Below, piece by piece: positions 22,294 through 32,481 of a stretch of 40,101 bases of DNA. The notes beneath the pieces were generated by a model. The model saw only the letters and a list, made by a program, of their open reading frames with translations. It searched no databases and was not told where the DNA came from. Location of the stretch: positions 1 through 40,101 of the forward strand of contig JAAYBJ010000322.1 in assembly GCA_012730105.1 (NCBI GenBank), in the 5' to 3' direction. The stretch is from Candidatus Hydrogenedentota bacterium (GTDB lineage: Bacteria > Hydrogenedentota > Hydrogenedentia > Hydrogenedentales > CAITNO01). Position numbers and translations under genes: made by a program. Positions within the stretch are counted from its first letter, which is position 1; each line of letters opens with the position of its first letter.

Positions 22294-22462
22294 TAAGATG
22301 TATTGGTTTGTTTTTTTGTAATTTATAAGGTAAGAAATATACCGCACCTGAGGCATGCCAACGTGTCATCACCTCATTTATAAAAAATTTTATGTATTTC
22401 GTATTTAATCACTTACACACAAGTGTGCCGCCTTGCACGGCGTCACCGGGGAAGGTATGGTC

Positions 22463-25400
22463 ATGACCTATTTTATTCACACCCGTATTATGCTTATAGC
22501 CGTCATTTTGTCCGCTATGCCCATTATGGCGGATGTAACGGTGGTAGGCTCGGGCTCAGGTATCGATGAAGCCAATGACAACGCGTTTTCGTTTACCGTA
22601 ACCGTGCCAACGGGGACGCAACTGGCTGTTGTGGGAGTCACGAATCGCGATGCCCGCAACGCGACTGCAGTATCACTGGGCAGTTCAACCATGACTTTTG
22701 CCATCAATTCCACTTCCAGTCCCAACAGCGACATGGATGAACGGGCGCAACTGTATTTTCTCGCCAATCCGCCCGCAGGAAGTCAAACCGTTTCGGTGAC
22801 CCTGTCCGGTAATTCACGCCACAAAGCGGCCGGATGCATCTTGCTTACGGGTGTAAATACTGCCGCGATGGCAACAACAACCAAAAAGGCGGATGAAAAT
22901 CAATTTGACAACGATCCCACCCCGAGCATCAGTTTTACCGCAGCAGAAGCGCCTGCAGGTTCCATGGCAGTTTCAGTGATTAACAGTCGCGGCGCTAACC
23001 TTGCCATCGCCGGGATCGGTCATACCGAAAGGTGGAACCTGGAAACCTATTATTTCTGGGACGCTCCGCAACGGTCCAGACACGGCGGGGGCACATCCCC
23101 CGGGTCCAGTGCCAGCGGCGCCACCGTAGCCTGGACCCCAGACGGAGGAGCGTACGACGCCAACTGGGGTATGGTGGCCATGGTGATTCCAGCGAGCTAT
23201 ACCGGGATTACCAACATAGCACCGGACACGCTCAGTGTAAACGACAATGATCCCAATAACACGGTTTTCGGAACCTTGACCGCCACGGACGCTGATAATA
23301 AGCCGCCCTACACCTGGTCGCTGATCAATAATGCAGGCGGGCGCTTTGCATTGAATGCCAGCGACACTCTGGATGTCGATGTGCGCATCGCGAACGCCGC
23401 GCTTATTGATTACGGCCAGAATACCTCCCACACCATCCGGGTCGGTGTCCGAAATAACGAATATCCCATTGTTTTTGAAAAAGATATTACCATCAATGTG
23501 GTGGATACCACAGACCCGGTAATCGGCCCTGTCACAGCCTCACAAACTTTCGCCCTGTCGGGAGAGTTTGTCACGTTCAGCGCCACCATCACGGATAACG
23601 ACGCAATAGCCGGCATCCCGACGATGACCCTGGGCGGTTCGCCGCTCATGTTCAGCAATCAGAGCGGCGATGTGTATACCTGGGGCTGGAATGTGCCTCT
23701 TGGATCTCCTGACGGTGCAGTTTCCGTTACGGTAACTGCAGAAGATGTAGCCGGCAATGAAACCACCCTGGTTGCGGACGATGTTATTATCGTGGACAAC
23801 ACGAAACCGTATATTACCGGGCTAACTGTTTCCCAAATGTATGCCAAAGAGGGGGATACGGTCACCATCCAGGTGGAAGTGCAGGATTTTTACGGTGTTG
23901 CAGAATTTCCGACCGTTACCCTTGCCGGAATAGACTGTGGCATTCCTTCCGTCAGCGGCTTTACCTATACCTGGCTGGTTGGCATTACATCCGCTTTTCC
24001 TGAAGGCCCGGCCGATGTTCTGGTCACCGCTCTAGATTTGGCGGGCAACCAGTCCCAGGGCAGCGGACCCGCCCTGTTGATCATTGACCGTACGGCCCCC
24101 ACCATTTCCGCCTTTGCGTCCACCCATGAGTACGCCACGCTCAACAATATCGTAACGCTGGAGGCGGCGGTTCTCGATAATTTCGGGTTGAACGGCGCAC
24201 CCAATATGTACCTGAACGGTACTATGCTGAATACACCGACCGTATCCGGAAGCACCTACTACTGGCAGTTCCCGATTACCACGGCTATCACCCAGGGCGC
24301 CGCCGTCATAGAGGTTGAGGCTACAGACCAGGCGGGGAATGAATCGTCGGCAGGTCCCGCCTCAACCATTCTGGTCATTGATTATACGCAACCCAGTATT
24401 TCCGCGCTGACGGTCAATCCGTCCCGCGCCAAAGGCGGCACCGCGCTTACCCTCACCGCGCAGGTGGTTGAGAATTACGGCCTCAATGGAACGCCCACAA
24501 TGAATATCAATGGGTTGCCCGTGCCGGCGCCCTCACACTCGGGCTCCACGTATACCTGGAATTACATTGTCCCAACCACGCCTCCGCCTGTGGAAGGGCC
24601 GGCGCAGATTGAAATCCTTGCCGTTGACCTGGCAGGCAATATAAACAATCTCCTGAACACCTCCCAGTTAACCTATGATCCGACTGCGCCCATTTTCAGC
24701 AATGCCGCAGCCGATCCCGATCTGGTGCGATTGGGACAAACAACTACAATCAGCGTCAATATGTACGATATCAGTCCGTTAACCGGGACGCCTGTGCTCA
24801 CAGTTAACGGCGTTTCGGCCACGTATGTCGGCATTGAGGACCTTGGCGACAACAATAAGATCCTTAGGTTTAGTTTTACCATTGCAGCCGGAACCCCCGA
24901 GGGCAATGCGTCACTTCAATTCTACGCAAGGGACGTTCTTGGCAATGCGCGCTTCACGGATTTTACAAACGTCCTGATGGTGGATAAAACAGCACCCGTG
25001 ATCAGCAATGTCTCCGCCAGCCCAAGCGTCAGCAGGGCCGGTGCCACGGTTAATATCACCTTTGATGCTATTGACGCCCTTTCTGAAATTTACGGAACTC
25101 CCACAGTAACCGTGAATGGCGCCAGCGCGTCGTACCAGTCGGTGTCAGGCGGCCATTACACCTACCGCTACACGGTGCGCGACGCCAGCCTGGATCCGGA
25201 CGGACCGGCCACGATCTTCATTACCTGCCGTGACACGGTGGGCAATTCCGGCTCAGCGCAACATGAAGACAAACTCATGATTGACAACTCTCTGCCCATG
25301 ATATCCGATTTGATCGTTTTCCCGAATATCGCGGCGGAAGGTACCGGTATCACCATCGGGTTCACCGCCACTGACGACAGCGGACTGGGCAGCCTGCCTG

Positions 25401-28400
25401 TAGTAAAGGTCAACGGCAACAATGCCTCTTTCGTTGCCGCCCAGGGCAGCACCTTCGAGTACGGTTATACCGTGCGCGGCGCCTATGACGATGAAGGGTA
25501 TGCGTTGCTCTCAATCCGTGTCGAGGATTCCATCGGGAATGTGCTGACCAGTGAGAGCACAGGTCTCCTTCTCGTTGATTTTACGCCGCCTGCCGGCGCA
25601 CTTGTCATCAATGACAACGCCCTGTTCACGCGGACAACGGATGTTACGCTGGGCATCACCGCTTCCGATGGTGAGTTCGGCAGTGGTGCCCAGAGCATGT
25701 GTTTCAGCGACGATGGCATCAGCTGGAGCGTCTGGGAGCCGATAGCGGCAAGCCGGGAATGGCAGTTGAAAAGCGGCCAGGGGTACAAAACGATCTACCT
25801 GCGCTTGCGTGACCGTGCCGGGAACGTCTCCATGCTGCCCATCACGGATACCATTGCGCTGAAACCCAACACCCTCGTGGTGGACCGCGAAGGTTCGGGG
25901 GAGGTGAAAGGCCTGCCTGGAGATGCCATCGTACTGGAGGTGACACCGCGCAACGTATTCGGCGCCATTCAGTCCTATGAGTGGTTCAAGGACGGCAGCC
26001 CCATAGAAGGCTACGGGCCGGTGCTGGTTATAGAGAATTTTGAGGAATACGATATGGGCAGTTATGTTTGCAGAGTCGCTGATGAAATGGAAACGGCGGA
26101 ATCCCTGCCTTTCACAATCGGGATCTCCGAAGAAACACCGGTGCCGGCCGCTTCCTGGAAGGGCATGGCCCTGTTGCTCTCCTGCATACTGCTCTTCGCC
26201 ATTGCTCTACTGCGGCGGCGCAGCCATTCTTCAGCAACTATCGTGTTATTTGTTGGAATCGGACTGTGCTTATCCGGTCTTGCCGGCGCCGAAGTTACCG
26301 TGGTCTATTCCGCACAGGCGGAGCAGCCCATGGATCTCAGCGATGCGGCCATGACTGACTTGGCCCTGCAAAAGGGCTCCATTGAAATCTGGACCAAAAA
26401 CGAGGACGGAACCGTTAAGCGTCAGTTATCCCGTTTGGGCGATCCCGGGGTGGCCAATCCCGGCTTTTCCTCCCACCAGCGTGAAGGGTTTGCAGAACAG
26501 ATGGGCAAGGGGCTTCCCATTACCGTCCTGAAAGACGGCACCGAGGAACTTCACATTCCCTTGTCGGACGAGGCCGTTCGCGTATATTCCCAGAATCTGA
26601 ATAAAGGAATGGGTGAACCCTCCTTTGAAATGAAGATCGTGGTGAACAGCAAAACGCTCGTTTCCGAAAAACGGTACGAAACGTTTGTGGATGGCGTCAT
26701 GCGCCCGAATATGCTGCGCCTGGATTATCCCGGCGGCGCGATTATCCAGGTCTTTGAGTACACGAACACGCCTCCCGCGCCACTGCCCCCGGTATATTTG
26801 CGGAAAGAAGGCGTGGGAGACGATAAAGAATCGGACGTCTATCCCAAATCATGGGTGACGAAAGCGGATGGCGAGACCCAGACACGGGACGTCCAGTTTA
26901 TTGTGCCCCAGCAGGGACTGGGCAACCTGGGATTTGACTCCGGCTGGGTACCGGGAGGTTCAGGTCCGGACCCGGGCGGGTTCATCATCCAGGTGCGCAT
27001 CAATGCCGAAGCGGGGTATACCTATGACGCGGCGGTAAACGGCGCTTTCAATCTTACGCCGGACAACCTGCTGGGGCTGGGCCCCGCCGCGGGCAACTGG
27101 GGATTTTATTTCGGCGCCGAATTCTTCATGAAGGCGGCCTTTGATATTCCCCCAATCCTGGGCTACGATATCGAACCCTTCATCGTGGATATCCCGTACG
27201 TGCCGGATTTCAACATGGTCGCCTCGGACCGGGACACCTTCAACAACTGGCTGTTGGATTCGGTGTCCACCGTGCGCGATGACGCTGGACGCACCAATGT
27301 GGTCAACCTGGACATCGTTTCGCTGCTGATCACGCAGGGGGTGCTTCCCGAACTGCCGGACTGGGTTCCCCTGCCGAGAGTGGGCGTATCCCTGGATGTC
27401 GGCGCCATAGCGGACGGCAGCCTGACCTGCGACAGCATCCTGCTGAGCGATGGCACCCAATATGTTCAGGAAGGGCAGGAGCTCGGTGTTTATGTCCCCC
27501 CGACGGGGTATCATGCGATCGCCGAATACCTTGAAAATGCCCATTTAAACCTGGGTGTAAAATTTTATCCCTTTGTCTTTTTTTCCTGGGACCTGTATGT
27601 GTTTGATTTCAGTTATGCGTGGCCGACGGATTTTAATGATCCGGACAACCTGCTGGCCCGACTTGAATGGCTGCCCATTGCACATACCAATTTCCCCTTC
27701 ACCAACGCGGAACTGAATTTTACGGGACAGCCCAGCACCCTTCCGGCGACTGACTGGTTCACGGAACTGTTCGTACCTGTGCTGCGAACGAATGACATAA
27801 GCCTTCATCAAGTCCGGTTCACACCCAACCTGTCCAATAATTTCTACAGCGCATGCATGGGCGCCGCTACGGCCTATCGGACAGATCCCACCGGCGGTAT
27901 TCCTGTAACCCTGGGAGACGATGCCTTTGTCGAGGTCACACTTACCGAAGGCAAACAGATACCGTTATACGGCGTCTATTATGATTCTTTCTTCATTGGG
28001 AGCAACGGTTACATAACGTTTAATGAAGGGGATGCTACAAACGAGGCCAACCTCGAAAACCACTTCAACCAACCCCGTATTTCAGGACTGTTTCTGAACA
28101 TGAATCCCGCCGAAGGCGGTACGATTTCCTATAAACAACTGCCCAACCGCGTTGTGGTAACCTATGACCATGTCCGCCTCGCCAATATCATCACAGAGCA
28201 GACGGCCAACTTTCAGATTGAAATGTTCTTTGATGGGCGCATTGTCATTACCTGGTTGCAGGAAGACACCTATGTCGGGCTTATCGGGTTATCACAAGGC
28301 AACGGCGTGCCCGAAGAATTTGAAAACAGTGACTTTACCCAGTATCCGGGTTGTCTGACGGACATCGCGCCGGAATACGGTATACGCGTCAATTTCACAC

Positions 28401-30142
28401 CCCCCGAGGTATTGCCCTATGAACCGCGCTGGCGCGCGGGTTCGGGCGACTGGAAAGCTACCGGTACCTATACCTCCGTTCCCCTGGGTGAAAACTGGGT
28501 GTACTTCAATTACATTCCCTTGTATTGGACGGCGCCGGGCGCCATGCTAACCCAGGTGAACACCCCCGACGTGTTTGTTGATTTGTACCCGGAATGGATC
28601 CGCTCCACGGGAACGGTGACAGTTTCCACACAGCCGGAAACAGCCTCCTGGGTAGTGACGGACATCGAAGGTGGTATTCATTCGGGAACGGGGCCCGCGG
28701 TACTTACGAACATCCCGACCGGCATGACAACTATCGAATGGCAGCCTTTGGCCACCTATCAAACACCCGATCCCGCAACCCAGGAGGCCATGTTATATTC
28801 CGGTATGACCGTTGGCTTTTCAGCGAATTACGCACCCATTGTCGGTCAGGGCGAAGCCACCCTGATTGTTAATATCCAGCCGGAAGCCGCCCTGGCTGCA
28901 GGCGCGCAATGGCGGGTGAACGGCGGCGCCTGGTTTGACAGCGGGTATGTGGCCACCGTTCCGGATGGTGATACTACCATTGAATTCAAGGAACTACCGG
29001 GCTGGACGCGCCCCGTGGCGATATCCTTGTTCCTCAACCGCAACACCACCACTGAATTTAACCGGGGATACGGACGCCATAAAGGAACGGTCTGGGTGGT
29101 TACTGAACCGCCAAACGCGCCCTGGGAACTGACAGACGGCGACGGCATTATGCATTTCGGTATCGGCGAGCAGGTGCTGCAGAACCTTCCGACCGGCGAT
29201 AACCTCCAGATCAGCTGGGGCGGCGTGCTTACCTATACGCCCCCGGTTCCCAATCCGACGGTATTTGCCCTGGCGCAAAACGAGGTTAAACGCATCGTAG
29301 GCGCTTATGTGCCTGTTATCGGTGTCGGCGAGGGCATTGTCAGCGTAACCCTGTATCCGCCCGCGGCCGCCAATGCTGGCGCGCAGTGGCGCCTGTTCGG
29401 GGATGAATGGCGCGTCAGCGGCGGTATGGTCGCTTCAAGGGACGGCGAACAGACCCTCCTGTTCAGCGACGTACCCGGCTGGATTACACCTCCGCAAATG
29501 ACGGTCAATGTGGTACGGGATATCACCAACTATTTCGAAGCCACCTATGAACGGCTCTCGGGAACGGTAGTCGTGGATGTGACGCCTGCCAACGCCTATT
29601 GGACGTTGACCGATGCGGATGGCGGCTCCTATACGCGCATCGGCGATGCCACCTTGACCGGAGTCCCTTCGGGCGAAGTATCCATCGCGTGGGGTGAACT
29701 GGAAGGCTATGAGCCGCCACAACCCAATCCAGCCTCCTATACCCTGGAAGCGGATGCCACCCTCACCATCAGTGGTGAATATGTTGAATCCATTCTCACC
29801 GCCGATTTCAGCGCCTTCCCCCTGACGGGGTTGCCACCGCTGGAAGTCACTTTCCACGACGAAAGTGAGTCAACCACCAAGGAGATCATCGAGTGGCGCT
29901 GGTATTTCGGTGACGGTAAAGTAAGCACGGAACAGCATCCCACCCATGTCTATCGCGAACCGGGCACGTACACGGTTACACTAACGGTCGTAACTTTTGA
30001 CAAAATGGATGTTATCTCCAAGAAACAATACATTGTCGTGACCCAGGGGATGCCGGCGGCCGGCCTGGCAGGCTTGGCGGCTGTCGCAGGACTGCTCGGT
30101 CTAGGCGGCATTTTCACCATAAAACGCAAGCGGCGGGTGTAA
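22463..30142 (+). CDS. giant surface protein: two secreted proteins fused in one ORF
   Basis: 2559 codons from ATG 22463 (GGGGAAGG 7 bases before it); ATGs at 22457 and 22433 are alternatives. First part: signal peptide ending IMA/DVTVV, a beta-rich N-domain, a cadherin-like domain (to about 23509), seven Ig-like repeats of 97-102 residues (23510-25582), a divergent eighth (to about 25863), one Ig domain, then PVPAASWKGMALLLS, a hydrophobic helix and LRRR (26141-26220), the form of a C-terminal sorting tail. At once a second signal peptide follows (26221-26290), ending LAGA/EVTVV. Second part: a large beta-rich region, a NIDO-like domain (about 27890-28300), alternating PEGA-like and GAQWR modules (28606-29790), a PKD domain (29798-30043) and a second sorting tail MPAAGLAGLAAVAGLL...KRKRRV. 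Probably envelope-anchored, adhesive or structural. Confidence 0.8.
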   Translation: MTYFIHTRIMLIAVILSAMPIMADVTVVGSGSGIDEANDNAFSFTVTVPTGTQLAVVGVTNRDARNATAVSLGSSTMTFAINSTSSPNSDMDERAQLYFLANPPAGSQTVSVTLSGNSRHKAAGCILLTGVNTAAMATTTKKADENQFDNDPTPSISFTAAEAPAGSMAVSVINSRGANLAIAGIGHTERWNLETYYFWDAPQRSRHGGGTSPGSSASGATVAWTPDGGAYDANWGMVAMVIPASYTGITNIAPDTLSVNDNDPNNTVFGTLTATDADNKPPYTWSLINNAGGRFALNASDTLDVDVRIANAALIDYGQNTSHTIRVGVRNNEYPIVFEKDITINVVDTTDPVIGPVTASQTFALSGEFVTFSATITDNDAIAGIPTMTLGGSPLMFSNQSGDVYTWGWNVPLGSPDGAVSVTVTAEDVAGNETTLVADDVIIVDNTKPYITGLTVSQMYAKEGDTVTIQVEVQDFYGVAEFPTVTLAGIDCGIPSVSGFTYTWLVGITSAFPEGPADVLVTALDLAGNQSQGSGPALLIIDRTAPTISAFASTHEYATLNNIVTLEAAVLDNFGLNGAPNMYLNGTMLNTPTVSGSTYYWQFPITTAITQGAAVIEVEATDQAGNESSAGPASTILVIDYTQPSISALTVNPSRAKGGTALTLTAQVVENYGLNGTPTMNINGLPVPAPSHSGSTYTWNYIVPTTPPPVEGPAQIEILAVDLAGNINNLLNTSQLTYDPTAPIFSNAAADPDLVRLGQTTTISVNMYDISPLTGTPVLTVNGVSATYVGIEDLGDNNKILRFSFTIAAGTPEGNASLQFYARDVLGNARFTDFTNVLMVDKTAPVISNVSASPSVSRAGATVNITFDAIDALSEIYGTPTVTVNGASASYQSVSGGHYTYRYTVRDASLDPDGPATIFITCRDTVGNSGSAQHEDKLMIDNSLPMISDLIVFPNIAAEGTGITIGFTATDDSGLGSLPVVKVNGNNASFVAAQGSTFEYGYTVRGAYDDEGYALLSIRVEDSIGNVLTSESTGLLLVDFTPPAGALVINDNALFTRTTDVTLGITASDGEFGSGAQSMCFSDDGISWSVWEPIAASREWQLKSGQGYKTIYLRLRDRAGNVSMLPITDTIALKPNTLVVDREGSGEVKGLPGDAIVLEVTPRNVFGAIQSYEWFKDGSPIEGYGPVLVIENFEEYDMGSYVCRVADEMETAESLPFTIGISEETPVPAASWKGMALLLSCILLFAIALLRRRSHSSATIVLFVGIGLCLSGLAGAEVTVVYSAQAEQPMDLSDAAMTDLALQKGSIEIWTKNEDGTVKRQLSRLGDPGVANPGFSSHQREGFAEQMGKGLPITVLKDGTEELHIPLSDEAVRVYSQNLNKGMGEPSFEMKIVVNSKTLVSEKRYETFVDGVMRPNMLRLDYPGGAIIQVFEYTNTPPAPLPPVYLRKEGVGDDKESDVYPKSWVTKADGETQTRDVQFIVPQQGLGNLGFDSGWVPGGSGPDPGGFIIQVRINAEAGYTYDAAVNGAFNLTPDNLLGLGPAAGNWGFYFGAEFFMKAAFDIPPILGYDIEPFIVDIPYVPDFNMVASDRDTFNNWLLDSVSTVRDDAGRTNVVNLDIVSLLITQGVLPELPDWVPLPRVGVSLDVGAIADGSLTCDSILLSDGTQYVQEGQELGVYVPPTGYHAIAEYLENAHLNLGVKFYPFVFFSWDLYVFDFSYAWPTDFNDPDNLLARLEWLPIAHTNFPFTNAELNFTGQPSTLPATDWFTELFVPVLRTNDISLHQVRFTPNLSNNFYSACMGAATAYRTDPTGGIPVTLGDDAFVEVTLTEGKQIPLYGVYYDSFFIGSNGYITFNEGDATNEANLENHFNQPRISGLFLNMNPAEGGTISYKQLPNRVVVTYDHVRLANIITEQTANFQIEMFFDGRIVITWLQEDTYVGLIGLSQGNGVPEEFENSDFTQYPGCLTDIAPEYGIRVNFTPPEVLPYEPRWRAGSGDWKATGTYTSVPLGENWVYFNYIPLYWTAPGAMLTQVNTPDVFVDLYPEWIRSTGTVTVSTQPETASWVVTDIEGGIHSGTGPAVLTNIPTGMTTIEWQPLATYQTPDPATQEAMLYSGMTVGFSANYAPIVGQGEATLIVNIQPEAALAAGAQWRVNGGAWFDSGYVATVPDGDTTIEFKELPGWTRPVAISLFLNRNTTTEFNRGYGRHKGTVWVVTEPPNAPWELTDGDGIMHFGIGEQVLQNLPTGDNLQISWGGVLTYTPPVPNPTVFALAQNEVKRIVGAYVPVIGVGEGIVSVTLYPPAAANAGAQWRLFGDEWRVSGGMVASRDGEQTLLFSDVPGWITPPQMTVNVVRDITNYFEATYERLSGTVVVDVTPANAYWTLTDADGGSYTRIGDATLTGVPSGEVSIAWGELEGYEPPQPNPASYTLEADATLTISGEYVESILTADFSAFPLTGLPPLEVTFHDESESTTKEIIEWRWYFGDGKVSTEQHPTHVYREPGTYTVTLTVVTFDKMDVISKKQYIVVTQGMPAAGLAGLAAVAGLLGLGGIFTIKRKRRV
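23510..25863 (+). repeat. tandem bacterial Ig-like repeats inside the giant protein
   Basis: Unit starts at 23510, 23801, 24092, 24386, 24683, 24989 and 25289, each opening with a T/S-x-P-x-I/F-x pattern (TDPVIG, TKPYIT, TAPTIS, TQPSIS, TAPIFS, TAPVIS, SLPMIS) and carrying G.PT/TV...NG, YTW/YTY and a D.AGN-like motif. Unit length is 291-306 bases. A more diverged unit follows at 25583 (TPPAGA). The DNA of the units is well diverged, so this is an old array rather than a recent expansion. Confidence 0.85.
26141..26290 (+). other. internal sorting tail plus second signal peptide (fusion junction)
   Basis: The translation reads PVPAASW, about 19 hydrophobic residues, LRRRSHSS, about 15 hydrophobic residues, then GLAGA/EV. 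The first helix with its following Arg cluster looks like the end of a sorted surface protein; the second looks like a Sec signal with an AxA-like cleavage site. Only about six residues separate them, and no Met codon or ribosome site lies between (one in-frame GTG at 26233 has none). Confidence 0.75.
28606..29790 (+). repeat. alternating PEGA-like and GAQWR-type modules
   Basis: Type A modules start near 28606, 29081 and 29555 (GTVTVSTQPETASW, GTVWVVTEPPNAPW, GTVVVDVTPANAYW). Type B modules start near 28850 and 29326 (GEATLIVNIQPEAALAAGAQWR, GEGIVSVTLYPPAAANAGAQWR, each continuing to a PGW motif). The order is A-B-A-B-A with a period near 475 bases. Confidence 0.75.
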
Positions 30143-30361: not shown

Positions 30362-31942
30362 ATGGAATTTACTAATGATTTGAAGCAGGCCCTGACCTGC
30401 CTGGACAAAACCATTTATGTGGTTGAAGAAGAGGGGCGCCGGCAATACGTCCGGCGTAGTGGAACCGGCGATTTCCCTGTTGGGGAACATGTCCTGGCCC
30501 TGGCGCCACCCTGCCTGCCCGACCGTCTGGGAGATCCTTCTTTTTGTCGCGACCATCACCTGCTCTATCCCTGTTACGCGGGCAGCATGGCCCACGGCAT
30601 CGCGTCGGAAGCCCTGGTCGCCGCCATGGGTGAAGCCGGCATGCTGGGCTTTTTCGGCTCGGCAGGCATGTCGCTGGAGGAACTTGAAGGGGTCATCAGG
30701 CGGCTTTCCGGGCGCATGGGTACGCTGCCTTTCGGCATGAACCTGATCAACAGCCCGGGTGACACCGACTGGGAACAGGGCGCCGTGGACTTGTTCCTCA
30801 AACACGGCGTCACCCTTATTGAGGCTTCCGCGTATTTGATGCCCACGCCCGCGCTGGTGAAATTCCGCGTCAAGGGACTGACCCGGGATGCCTGCGGAAA
30901 TATTGTCGCGCCAAACCGTATCATCGCGAAAGTGTCCAGAGTGGAAGTGGCGAAACGCATGCTGGCCCCCCCCCCTGCCAAAATGGTTGAAAAACTGCTG
31001 AACTCGGGTGAGATCAGCGACGACGAGGCCAGGGTCGCCGCCTTGATTCCCCTGGCGCAGGACATTACGGCGGAGGCTGATTCCGGCGGCCACACGGACC
31101 ACCGTGCCGCCTTGCCTCTACTGCCTTCGATGCTGAGGCTGGCGGCGGACATACAGGCGGAACGGCGTTATACCTCTCCCCCGCGTGTCGGCCTCGCAGG
31201 CGGGATGGGAACGCCCGCAGCCGTAGCGGCCGCTTTCGCCATGGGCGCCGCGTACATTGTGACCGGATCCATCAACCAGGCGTGCCTCGAATCTGGATCT
31301 TCCGCGAAAGTCAGGGAAATGCTCGCTTGCGCGGTACAAACCGATGTCGCGGACGCTCCCGCCGCGGACATGTTTGAAATGGGCATCAAGGTGCAGGTGC
31401 TTAAAAAGGGCACCCGCTTCGCCGAACGCGCCTCCAGGTTGTATGAACTCTACCGTCTTTATGGCGGTATTGAGGATATTCCCGAAACACAGCGCGCGAA
31501 AATTGAGGAAACAATCTTTCGGAAGCCGTTGCAGGATATCTGGAAGGAAACAGAACAATTCTTTAAAACACGGAACCCCCGGCAATTGGAGCGGGCGGAC
31601 AAAGACCCAAAATACAAAATGGCCCTGGTGTTCAGGTGGTATCTCGGCCACGCCTCCCACTGGGCGAATGCGGGAACGGAAGATCGCACCGAAGATTATC
31701 AGGTATGGTGCGGTCCTTCCATGGGCGCCTTCAACGACTGGACACGAGATTCTTTCATGGAAGACCCTGCCAGACGCAGCGCGCCATTGGCGGCCCTGAA
31801 TCTGCTTTACGGCGCGGCGCTGCTCCTGCGCGTACAAACCCTGCGCACCCAAGGCGTCCGTATCGAAGTGCCGGCGCAATTCCCCCCGCCTGTGGACACC
31901 TTACCGGAATTTATGGTTACTACACGGAAAGCATTTCCATGA
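30362..31942 (+). CDS. pfaD: PfaD-family FMN enoyl reductase (PUFA/polyketide synthesis type)
   Basis: 526 residues. It belongs to the PfaD group of nitronate monooxygenase-like FMN proteins: LLYPCYAGSMAHGIAS near the N-terminus, MLGFFGSAGMSLEELE, PFGMNLINSP, EASAYLMPTPALVKFR, ADSGGHTDHRAALPLLPSM, and the FMN phosphate loop GLAGGMGTPAAVAAAFAMGAAYIVTGSINQ. The C-terminal third (QRAKIEETIFRKPLQDIW, FRWYLGHASHWAN, WCGPSMGAFNDW) is the usual PfaD tail. PfaD acts in trans as enoyl reductase for PUFA synthases and trans-AT polyketide synthases. No synthase is in the window, so this is an orphan copy. Its stop overlaps the lspA start in ATGA, which implies translational coupling. The ribosome site is weak (AAAGAAAG). 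Confidence 0.88.
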   Translation: MEFTNDLKQALTCLDKTIYVVEEEGRRQYVRRSGTGDFPVGEHVLALAPPCLPDRLGDPSFCRDHHLLYPCYAGSMAHGIASEALVAAMGEAGMLGFFGSAGMSLEELEGVIRRLSGRMGTLPFGMNLINSPGDTDWEQGAVDLFLKHGVTLIEASAYLMPTPALVKFRVKGLTRDACGNIVAPNRIIAKVSRVEVAKRMLAPPPAKMVEKLLNSGEISDDEARVAALIPLAQDITAEADSGGHTDHRAALPLLPSMLRLAADIQAERRYTSPPRVGLAGGMGTPAAVAAAFAMGAAYIVTGSINQACLESGSSAKVREMLACAVQTDVADAPAADMFEMGIKVQVLKKGTRFAERASRLYELYRLYGGIEDIPETQRAKIEETIFRKPLQDIWKETEQFFKTRNPRQLERADKDPKYKMALVFRWYLGHASHWANAGTEDRTEDYQVWCGPSMGAFNDWTRDSFMEDPARRSAPLAALNLLYGAALLLRVQTLRTQGVRIEVPAQFPPPVDTLPEFMVTTRKAFP

Positions 31943-32481
31943 AACAACGCAACAAAATCATCCTTATCCTTTCCATCCTGCTTTCCCTGATTGTCCTTGA
32001 CCACCTGACTAAATGGGTTGCCATTCATTATCTCAAGGATTCGGGAATGAGTTATCACTTTCTGGGCGATTTATTCAGACTGCAATATGCGGAAAATACC
32101 GGCGCGTTTCTAAGTCTCGGCGCTTCTTTGCCGGACGGCGTGCGGTCCGTGGTCATGACCGGATTGAATACTGTCATCCTGGGTGGATTGCTGCTGTACA
32201 TGTTCCTGAGCCGGAATATTCAGCGTCTCCCGCTGTGCGCGTTCAGCCTGGTCGCCGCAGGCGGTATTGGAAATCTCATAGACAGGATATTCCGTGACGG
32301 ACGTGTGGTGGATTTTATGAATATGGGGATAACATCCAGCGGCTTCACATTGAGAACCGGCATATTCAATGTGGCGGATGTGGCCATCATGGCAGGATTA
32401 TTTCTTGTGCTTCTGAATGAGGCCTTTATCATATCCAGAAAAAAGTCGGATAACAAGGACATCACAAAAGAAAAGAAGTAG
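31939..32481 (+). CDS. lspA: lipoprotein signal peptidase (signal peptidase II)
   Basis: 180 residues from the ATG overlapping the pfaD stop; the frame stays open to 31636 inside pfaD but MKQRNKIILIL is the natural start. Four membrane helices. Family landmarks are LDHLTKW (D21), ENTGAFLSLG, GNLIDRIFRDGRVVDFMN with catalytic D125, and FNVADVAI with catalytic D147. It is an inner-membrane aspartyl protease that removes the signal peptide of diacylglyceryl-modified prolipoproteins, such as the one encoded at 5529-6218. Length is normal. The C-terminus is basic and hydrophilic (KKSDNKDITKEKK). Confidence 0.95.
   Translation: MKQRNKIILILSILLSLIVLDHLTKWVAIHYLKDSGMSYHFLGDLFRLQYAENTGAFLSLGASLPDGVRSVVMTGLNTVILGGLLLYMFLSRNIQRLPLCAFSLVAAGGIGNLIDRIFRDGRVVDFMNMGITSSGFTLRTGIFNVADVAIMAGLFLVLLNEAFIISRKKSDNKDITKEKK

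Follow-up and report, generated by a model that had tools for sequence, protein, structure and literature searches.

Gene layout at the locus

The window, i.e. the whole 40,101-nucleotide stretch of Candidatus Hydrogenedentota DNA analyzed here, represents one contig, C303, of a metagenome-assembled genome of 5.63 Mb and carries a reading frame of 2559 codons, counted from the ATG at 22463, the features of which are collected in Table 1. The probable start is this ATG or that at 22457, and GGGGAAGG precedes the ATG at 22463 (anti-SD dG -6.7). The first-pass annotation had described a sorting tail followed directly by a second signal peptide inside one reading frame, and this description was confirmed, the chain being open from end to end. 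In the N half, the Pfam matches were Big_13 (3.5e-13), Big_3_3 (1.3e-10), Ig_3 (6.7e-5) and Cadherin (0.0022); the PKD domain of the C half matched PKD_4 (1.9e-14). At the join between the two halves, the RRR of the internal tail occupies positions 26213-26221, and the A4 tail model matched positions 26141-26224. The predicted signal peptidase I site of the internal signal peptide (SP2) falls between 26290 and 26291, where the segment EVTVVYSAQ begins.

Table 1. Features of the fused gene and its surroundings in the window. A slash within a sequence marks a predicted cleavage site.
Feature	Position	Strand	Basis
Single ORF, stop to stop	22409..30142	+	Open throughout; stop codon 30140-30142
Signal peptide 1 (SP1), MTYFIHTRIMLIAVILSAMPIMA/D	22463..22531	+	Sequence, alignment of N-termini, upstream anti-SD dG -6.7
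Mature N-terminal protein, cadherin-like/bacterial Ig-like repeats, last domain Ig	22532..26140	+	Pfam
Internal tripartite sorting tail VPAASWKGMALLLSCILLFAIALLRRR (VPAAS motif, hydrophobic helix, RRR)	26141..26221	+	Tail HMM 12.2 bits, second tail model, AF2 helix
Internal signal peptide 2 (SP2), SHSSATIVLFVGIGLCLSGLAGA, ending LAGA/E	26222..26290	+	-3/-1 conservation; position shared with signal peptide of stand-alone homologues
Mature C-terminal protein (first domain, further domains, PKD domain)	26291..30049	+	AF2, Foldseek, Pfam
True C-terminal sorting tail MPAAGLAGLAAVAGLLGLGGIFTIKRKRRV, MPAAGLAGL...KRKRRV	30050..30139	+	Tail HMM 20.7 bits
lspA-like gene (lipoprotein signal peptidase II)	31567..32478

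Conservation of the join and age of the fusion

Homologues of the N half were sought in 60 relatives and those of the C half in 119. A single stop-free ORF of 2565-2635 codons was present in five other genomes (G001, G006, G007, G009 and G011), and in a sixth (G003) the join was covered on one contig. The join was thus unbroken in all seven Hydrogenedentota genomes covering it, the window included, which represent four genera of one family (f1); G002 and G012 yielded only pieces ending at contig ends. Whole-protein identity to the window was 64% in G001, which belongs to its genus, and 82-85% for the pieces from G003; outside the genus it was ~47%. Alignment of the seven joins revealed that the tail, the basic residues and SP2 were kept in every one of them. 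The proposal that one chain comprises two secreted surface proteins is supported by the occurrence of the same join in seven genomes and four genera. The window being a metagenome-assembled contig, an assembly error or a stop codon recently lost in this one genome had been offered as the alternative, but six other genomes assembled in separate projects from independent metagenomes carry the stop-free join, which for practical purposes excludes it. Gene neighbors of the fused gene were not shared outside the genus, so the fused gene has been kept as a unit, and family f1 yielded no split orthologue. A likeness between the two mature starts (DVTVV and EVTVV) had also been pointed out; it holds in the window but is lost in relatives, where AVSIL, AVTVL or AVQVL stands against E[VA]xVVYSA. 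The likeness is therefore local and no evidence of duplication, and the duplication of one signal-plus-start was rejected as an origin of the join.

Homologues of each half as separate genes, which the first-pass annotation had suggested looking for, do exist. The C half occurs as a stand-alone gene with its own N-terminal signal peptide in families f3, f7, f10 and f11, and these signal peptides end where SP2 ends (e.g. ...MAAWG/DSSLVYTA and ...SAIASA/ESYWIYSA). An N-half-like Ig protein in G018 (L092) terminates in ...LPVLGFLGICAAVAFLAGAGICALRGAARRGA followed by a stop codon. Within the genus of the window, a stand-alone paralogue of the C half (L157, G002:C115), ~62% identical, likewise carries a signal peptide of its own. 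Since stand-alone C-half genes with their own signal peptides are found in other families, the fusion is derived but old. Judging from the sequences compared, it predates the split of the four genera and has been maintained, rather than reflecting a lost stop codon, a conclusion drawn from the join in all seven covered genomes, the stand-alone second half outside the family and the N-half-like protein that ends at the tail. An old fusion may still be functionally neutral, an ancestral stop loss having been fixed and tolerated as SP2 still works internally; both halves exist as separate genes elsewhere, so an advantage may be absent. This we regard as highly improbable given that the fusion has persisted in four genera whose synonymous divergence is near saturation, no re-split having been observed, and that the arrangement recurs in unrelated proteins (see below); moreover, such neutrality concerns why the fusion exists and not its working.

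The first-pass annotation had further stated that the two halves are not separated by a start codon having a ribosome site. This holds for the window, where the in-frame candidates are weak or misplaced: an ATG at -42 and a TTG at -39 lie inside the first transmembrane helix (anti-SD dG -3.3 and -5.7) and a GTG at -16 has a dG of +1.2, the values for the real start being -5.7/-6.7. It does not hold for G011, with an in-frame ATG at -34/-35 just before the basic cluster (dG -6.6/-6.7), or for G006, with an ATG at -36 in the same situation (dG -6.8) and a GTG at -25 (-8.2); G007 has an in-frame ATG at -27 (dG -4.7). The second protein might accordingly be made also, or mainly, from an internal in-frame start by the basic cluster, which would make these nested genes rather than an obligate polyprotein, and the starts in G006, G011 and perhaps G007 could initiate it. 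However, the window, G001, G003 and G009 lack a well-placed start with a ribosome site at the join, and background anti-SD values within the gene already reach -5.9 to -8.4 at the 5% level. A conserved internal ribosome start, absent from four of the seven genomes, was rejected, and we consider internal initiation distinctly unlikely as an account of the second protein. As none of the genomes has a stop codon at the join, ribosomes reading the first half make the fusion regardless.

Signals at the join and their predicted processing

For the tail HMM, 31 stand-alone C-terminal tails were taken from other proteins, the polyprotein gene contributing none. It matched exactly two places per chain in all seven genomes, namely the join and the true C-terminus, while the maximum on 210 shuffled sequences was -0.1 bits. 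The internal tail of the window scored lower than its C-terminal tail (12.2 vs 20.7 bits), and in G003 both tails were weak (4.1 and 5.3 bits). The tail is a genome-wide signal, found at 14 places in G000, the genome of the window, and at 8-28 in the other f1 genomes (E<=1). Small residues at -3 and -1 are the rule for signal peptidase I. Across the seven genomes, column -3 of SP2 is Ala in six and Thr in one, column -1 is Ala in six and Gly in one, and the Glu at +1 is invariant, whereas columns -22 to -4 and -2 are variable (entropy 1.15-2.81 bits). Basic residues precede the h-region in all seven. On its sequence, SP2 presents the features of a Sec signal peptide cut by signal peptidase I, i.e. 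a basic n-region, a hydrophobic h-region and small residues at -3/-1.

The only positions held in the hairpin formed by the two segments are -3/-1, the tail proline, a Leu and the basic residues; the rest drifts freely, with 31-47% identity vs 65-89% in the flanks and pN/pS of 0.50-0.75 vs 0.11-0.28. SP1 and the true C-terminal tail drift fast in the same manner, which is the usual behavior of cleaved signals. The first domain of the C half (26291-26785, the first 165 residues) was modeled by AF2 as a compact domain folding from residue 2 (pLDDT 90.0, pTM 0.83). Foldseek returned no match for this fold at E<=0.001, the best (1.6e-3) being a weak LolA/DUF1329-like lead. The AF2 model of the join region had a mean pLDDT of 48 and serves for helix positions only, predicting helices at 216-234 and 242-254. 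As sequence alone proves no cleavage, and as two helices do appear in this low-confidence model, the hairpin might remain uncut and anchor, together with the C-terminal tail, one giant protein displaying two ectodomains. We consider this unlikely because the small residues at -3/-1 are the only fixed columns in the second helix, the next domain begins exactly at the predicted site, the hairpin drifts as do the cleaved signals SP1 and tail 2, and the aligned stand-alone homologues have a signal peptide at this place.

The exosortase encoded in the genome of the window shows the Cys/Arg/His pattern ECGAIEIMAIF...NILRL...FAHEYVWQ and is identified as exosortase H (XrtH) by TIGR04177 (87.3/89.4 bits, above the cut-off of 86). 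XrtH-like genes were present in 53 of the 68 genomes of the order, and in 36 of the 38 good-quality ones; since only the copy in the genome of the window exceeds the TIGR04177 cut-off, the other copies are named XrtH by similarity. At L083 (7058-8578, G000:C23), exosortase H and a region resembling the XrtH-associated membrane protein share one 507-codon ORF, the downstream region scoring 22.9 bits with NF041730, under the cut-off of 35; the exosortase ORF of G007, G009 and G011 stops after the catalytic part. In keeping with exosortase substrates, a motif, a transmembrane helix and a basic cluster are shared by many proteins of the genome; tail 2 lies at a C-terminus, a position that the internal tail would reach only if SP2 were cut first. 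Assignment to the LPXTG sortase substrates was rejected, the motifs being VPAAS and MPAAG and the TIGR01167 score 12.7 bits (cut-off 15.9). So was processing as a lipoprotein by signal peptidase II, SP2 having an invariant Glu instead of a lipobox Cys at +1. The lspA-like gene, located two genes downstream of the fused gene and syntenic within the genus, is an unlikely source of the cutting enzyme as SP2 has no lipobox.

A single ORF conserved as such, conserved features of the tail and SP2 and an exosortase H in the genome are consistent with the reading that we favor, at a probability of roughly 0.7: one gene encodes a pre-polyprotein of two surface proteins that signal peptidase I and probably exosortase H turn into two separately anchored proteins. 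We infer its membrane topology, both cuts, their order and a 1:1 function as follows. SP1 would direct the chain, N half first, through Sec until the internal tail halts transfer, leaving its basic cluster on the cytoplasmic side. Transfer would then be restarted by the adjoining SP2, so that the join would form a helical hairpin whose RRR loop faces inward while both ectodomains lie outside. Signal peptidase I is expected to cut after LAGA, releasing the C-terminal protein with its own C-terminal tail. The freed N half would end in the tail plus a short peptide, by then an ordinary C-terminal sorting tail, which exosortase H of the genome probably cuts and re-attaches as any tail. With the C half anchored through its own tail, the products would be two separately anchored surface proteins in a fixed 1:1 ratio. 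If so, gene-calling and topology-prediction programs wrongly present such proteins as one giant each, and the system would offer a clean test of whether an exosortase can act on a tail only once signal peptidase I frees it.

Further joins and comparison with known systems

Further joins were sought with a junction model (HMM) run on every one of the order's 68 genomes and by a hydropathy scan of loci, and were found in three other unrelated protein types, one of them outside the order. The first is a 2489-residue polyprotein with Gly-rich and Ig repeats (L087, 3406-10872, G009:C146), a homologue of which, 52-57% identical, is encoded on the minus strand in another family (L131, 3301-9663, G062:C394); their join, KVPAASHWG...RLRRR...APAQA/Q, is kept across two families of the order, G062 being absent from the junction model. 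The second (L134, 4107-6566, G038:C88, 820 residues) has an N part of ~600 residues, with ...LTEWG...AMRRR preceding VVRAGVAAGLILAAAIVFAGGTADA/Q, and then a small second protein of ~175 residues. The third, outside the order (L200, 3176-7576, G144:C9), is a 1467-residue ORF with a signal peptide, PKD-like repeats and an IPTL-type tail, in which IPIPTLTYNG...RNRIRIR leads to a second signal peptide (...AGTGFA/Q), a body and a C-terminal tail of its own; the genome has an XrtH-like gene (65 bits). Junction-search matches ranked below these were mostly ordinary C-terminal tails. At two further loci (L088, 6315-7877, G018:C1; L089, 1294-3708, G027:C159), a helix resembling a sorting tail continues in the same frame into the start of a type IV pseudopilin (GGFTLIELL... 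and GRGFTLIELL...), the G018 contig having a run of N upstream; if these joins are real, prepilin peptidase rather than signal peptidase would separate the parts. We find it plausible, with confidence evenly balanced, that bacteria with exosortase H regularly organize genes as exported polyproteins: a hairpin cassette of tail plus signal peptide would let a single ORF give rise to two separately anchored surface proteins, signal peptidase I and an exosortase acting in order, and this cassette would have evolved repeatedly, in proteins unrelated to one another and beyond a single bacterial lineage.

To our knowledge, bacterial polyproteins are rare, and two complete surface proteins fused across a dedicated double-cut hairpin have hardly been described. 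FbcH of Bradyrhizobium, the cytochrome b/c1 precursor, is a single chain that is cleaved at an internal signal peptide to give two exported proteins; unlike the polyprotein, these are respiratory membrane proteins without sorting tails or exosortase. In Clostridioides, a surface cysteine protease splits the SlpA precursor into two surface proteins, but this precursor has neither an internal signal peptide nor a sorting tail. Our literature search retrieved no paper on exosortase H substrates of the polyprotein type and, for midcut, XrtH, bacterial signal-peptide polyproteins and fbcH, nothing direct in the portions of the sources consulted except MXAN_5598 of Myxococcus (PMC11980579). In the sections consulted, its authors describe an adhesin-like N part with an internal tripartite MYXO-CTERM tag, propose a gene fusion with processing of the N part, and state a precedent for functional internal sorting tags (PMC11980579). 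It differs in enzyme and motif (MYXO-CTERM/myxosortase) and in its C part, an outer-membrane barrel with OmpA domains, and those sections present it as a single protein and mention no internal signal peptide (PMC11980579). The tails of the PEP-CTERM/exosortase and XrtH systems are described, in the parts of the sources consulted, as C-terminal (PMC1569441, PMC3237569), whereas one of the two tails here is internal. As far as the literature searched shows, what is new is the union of two large and complete surface proteins that each bear a tail, and also an internal signal peptide that is complete, the conservation beyond one genus and the recurrence in unrelated proteins.

The closest curated kind is NCBIfam NF033207, midcut-by-XrtH, which resembles the join in its mid-chain motif, transmembrane segment and basic cluster followed by a second hydrophobic segment, and in its occurrence in XrtH-encoding genomes, to which that of the window belongs. 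The join aligns to model positions 33-103, is the best match in several relatives and ranks among the best matches to the model in the family. The scores (15.9 bits for the whole N half and 23.1 for the junction segment in the window, 27.1 for the best orthologue) lie under the 45-bit cut-off, which none of the 386 genomes searched exceeded. Membership was rejected on these scores, so the join is not filed under NF033207, though it would work like a member. It is unlike NF033207 in that its second segment is a full signal peptide, which opens an unrelated surface protein of >1200 residues with a C-terminal tail of its own.
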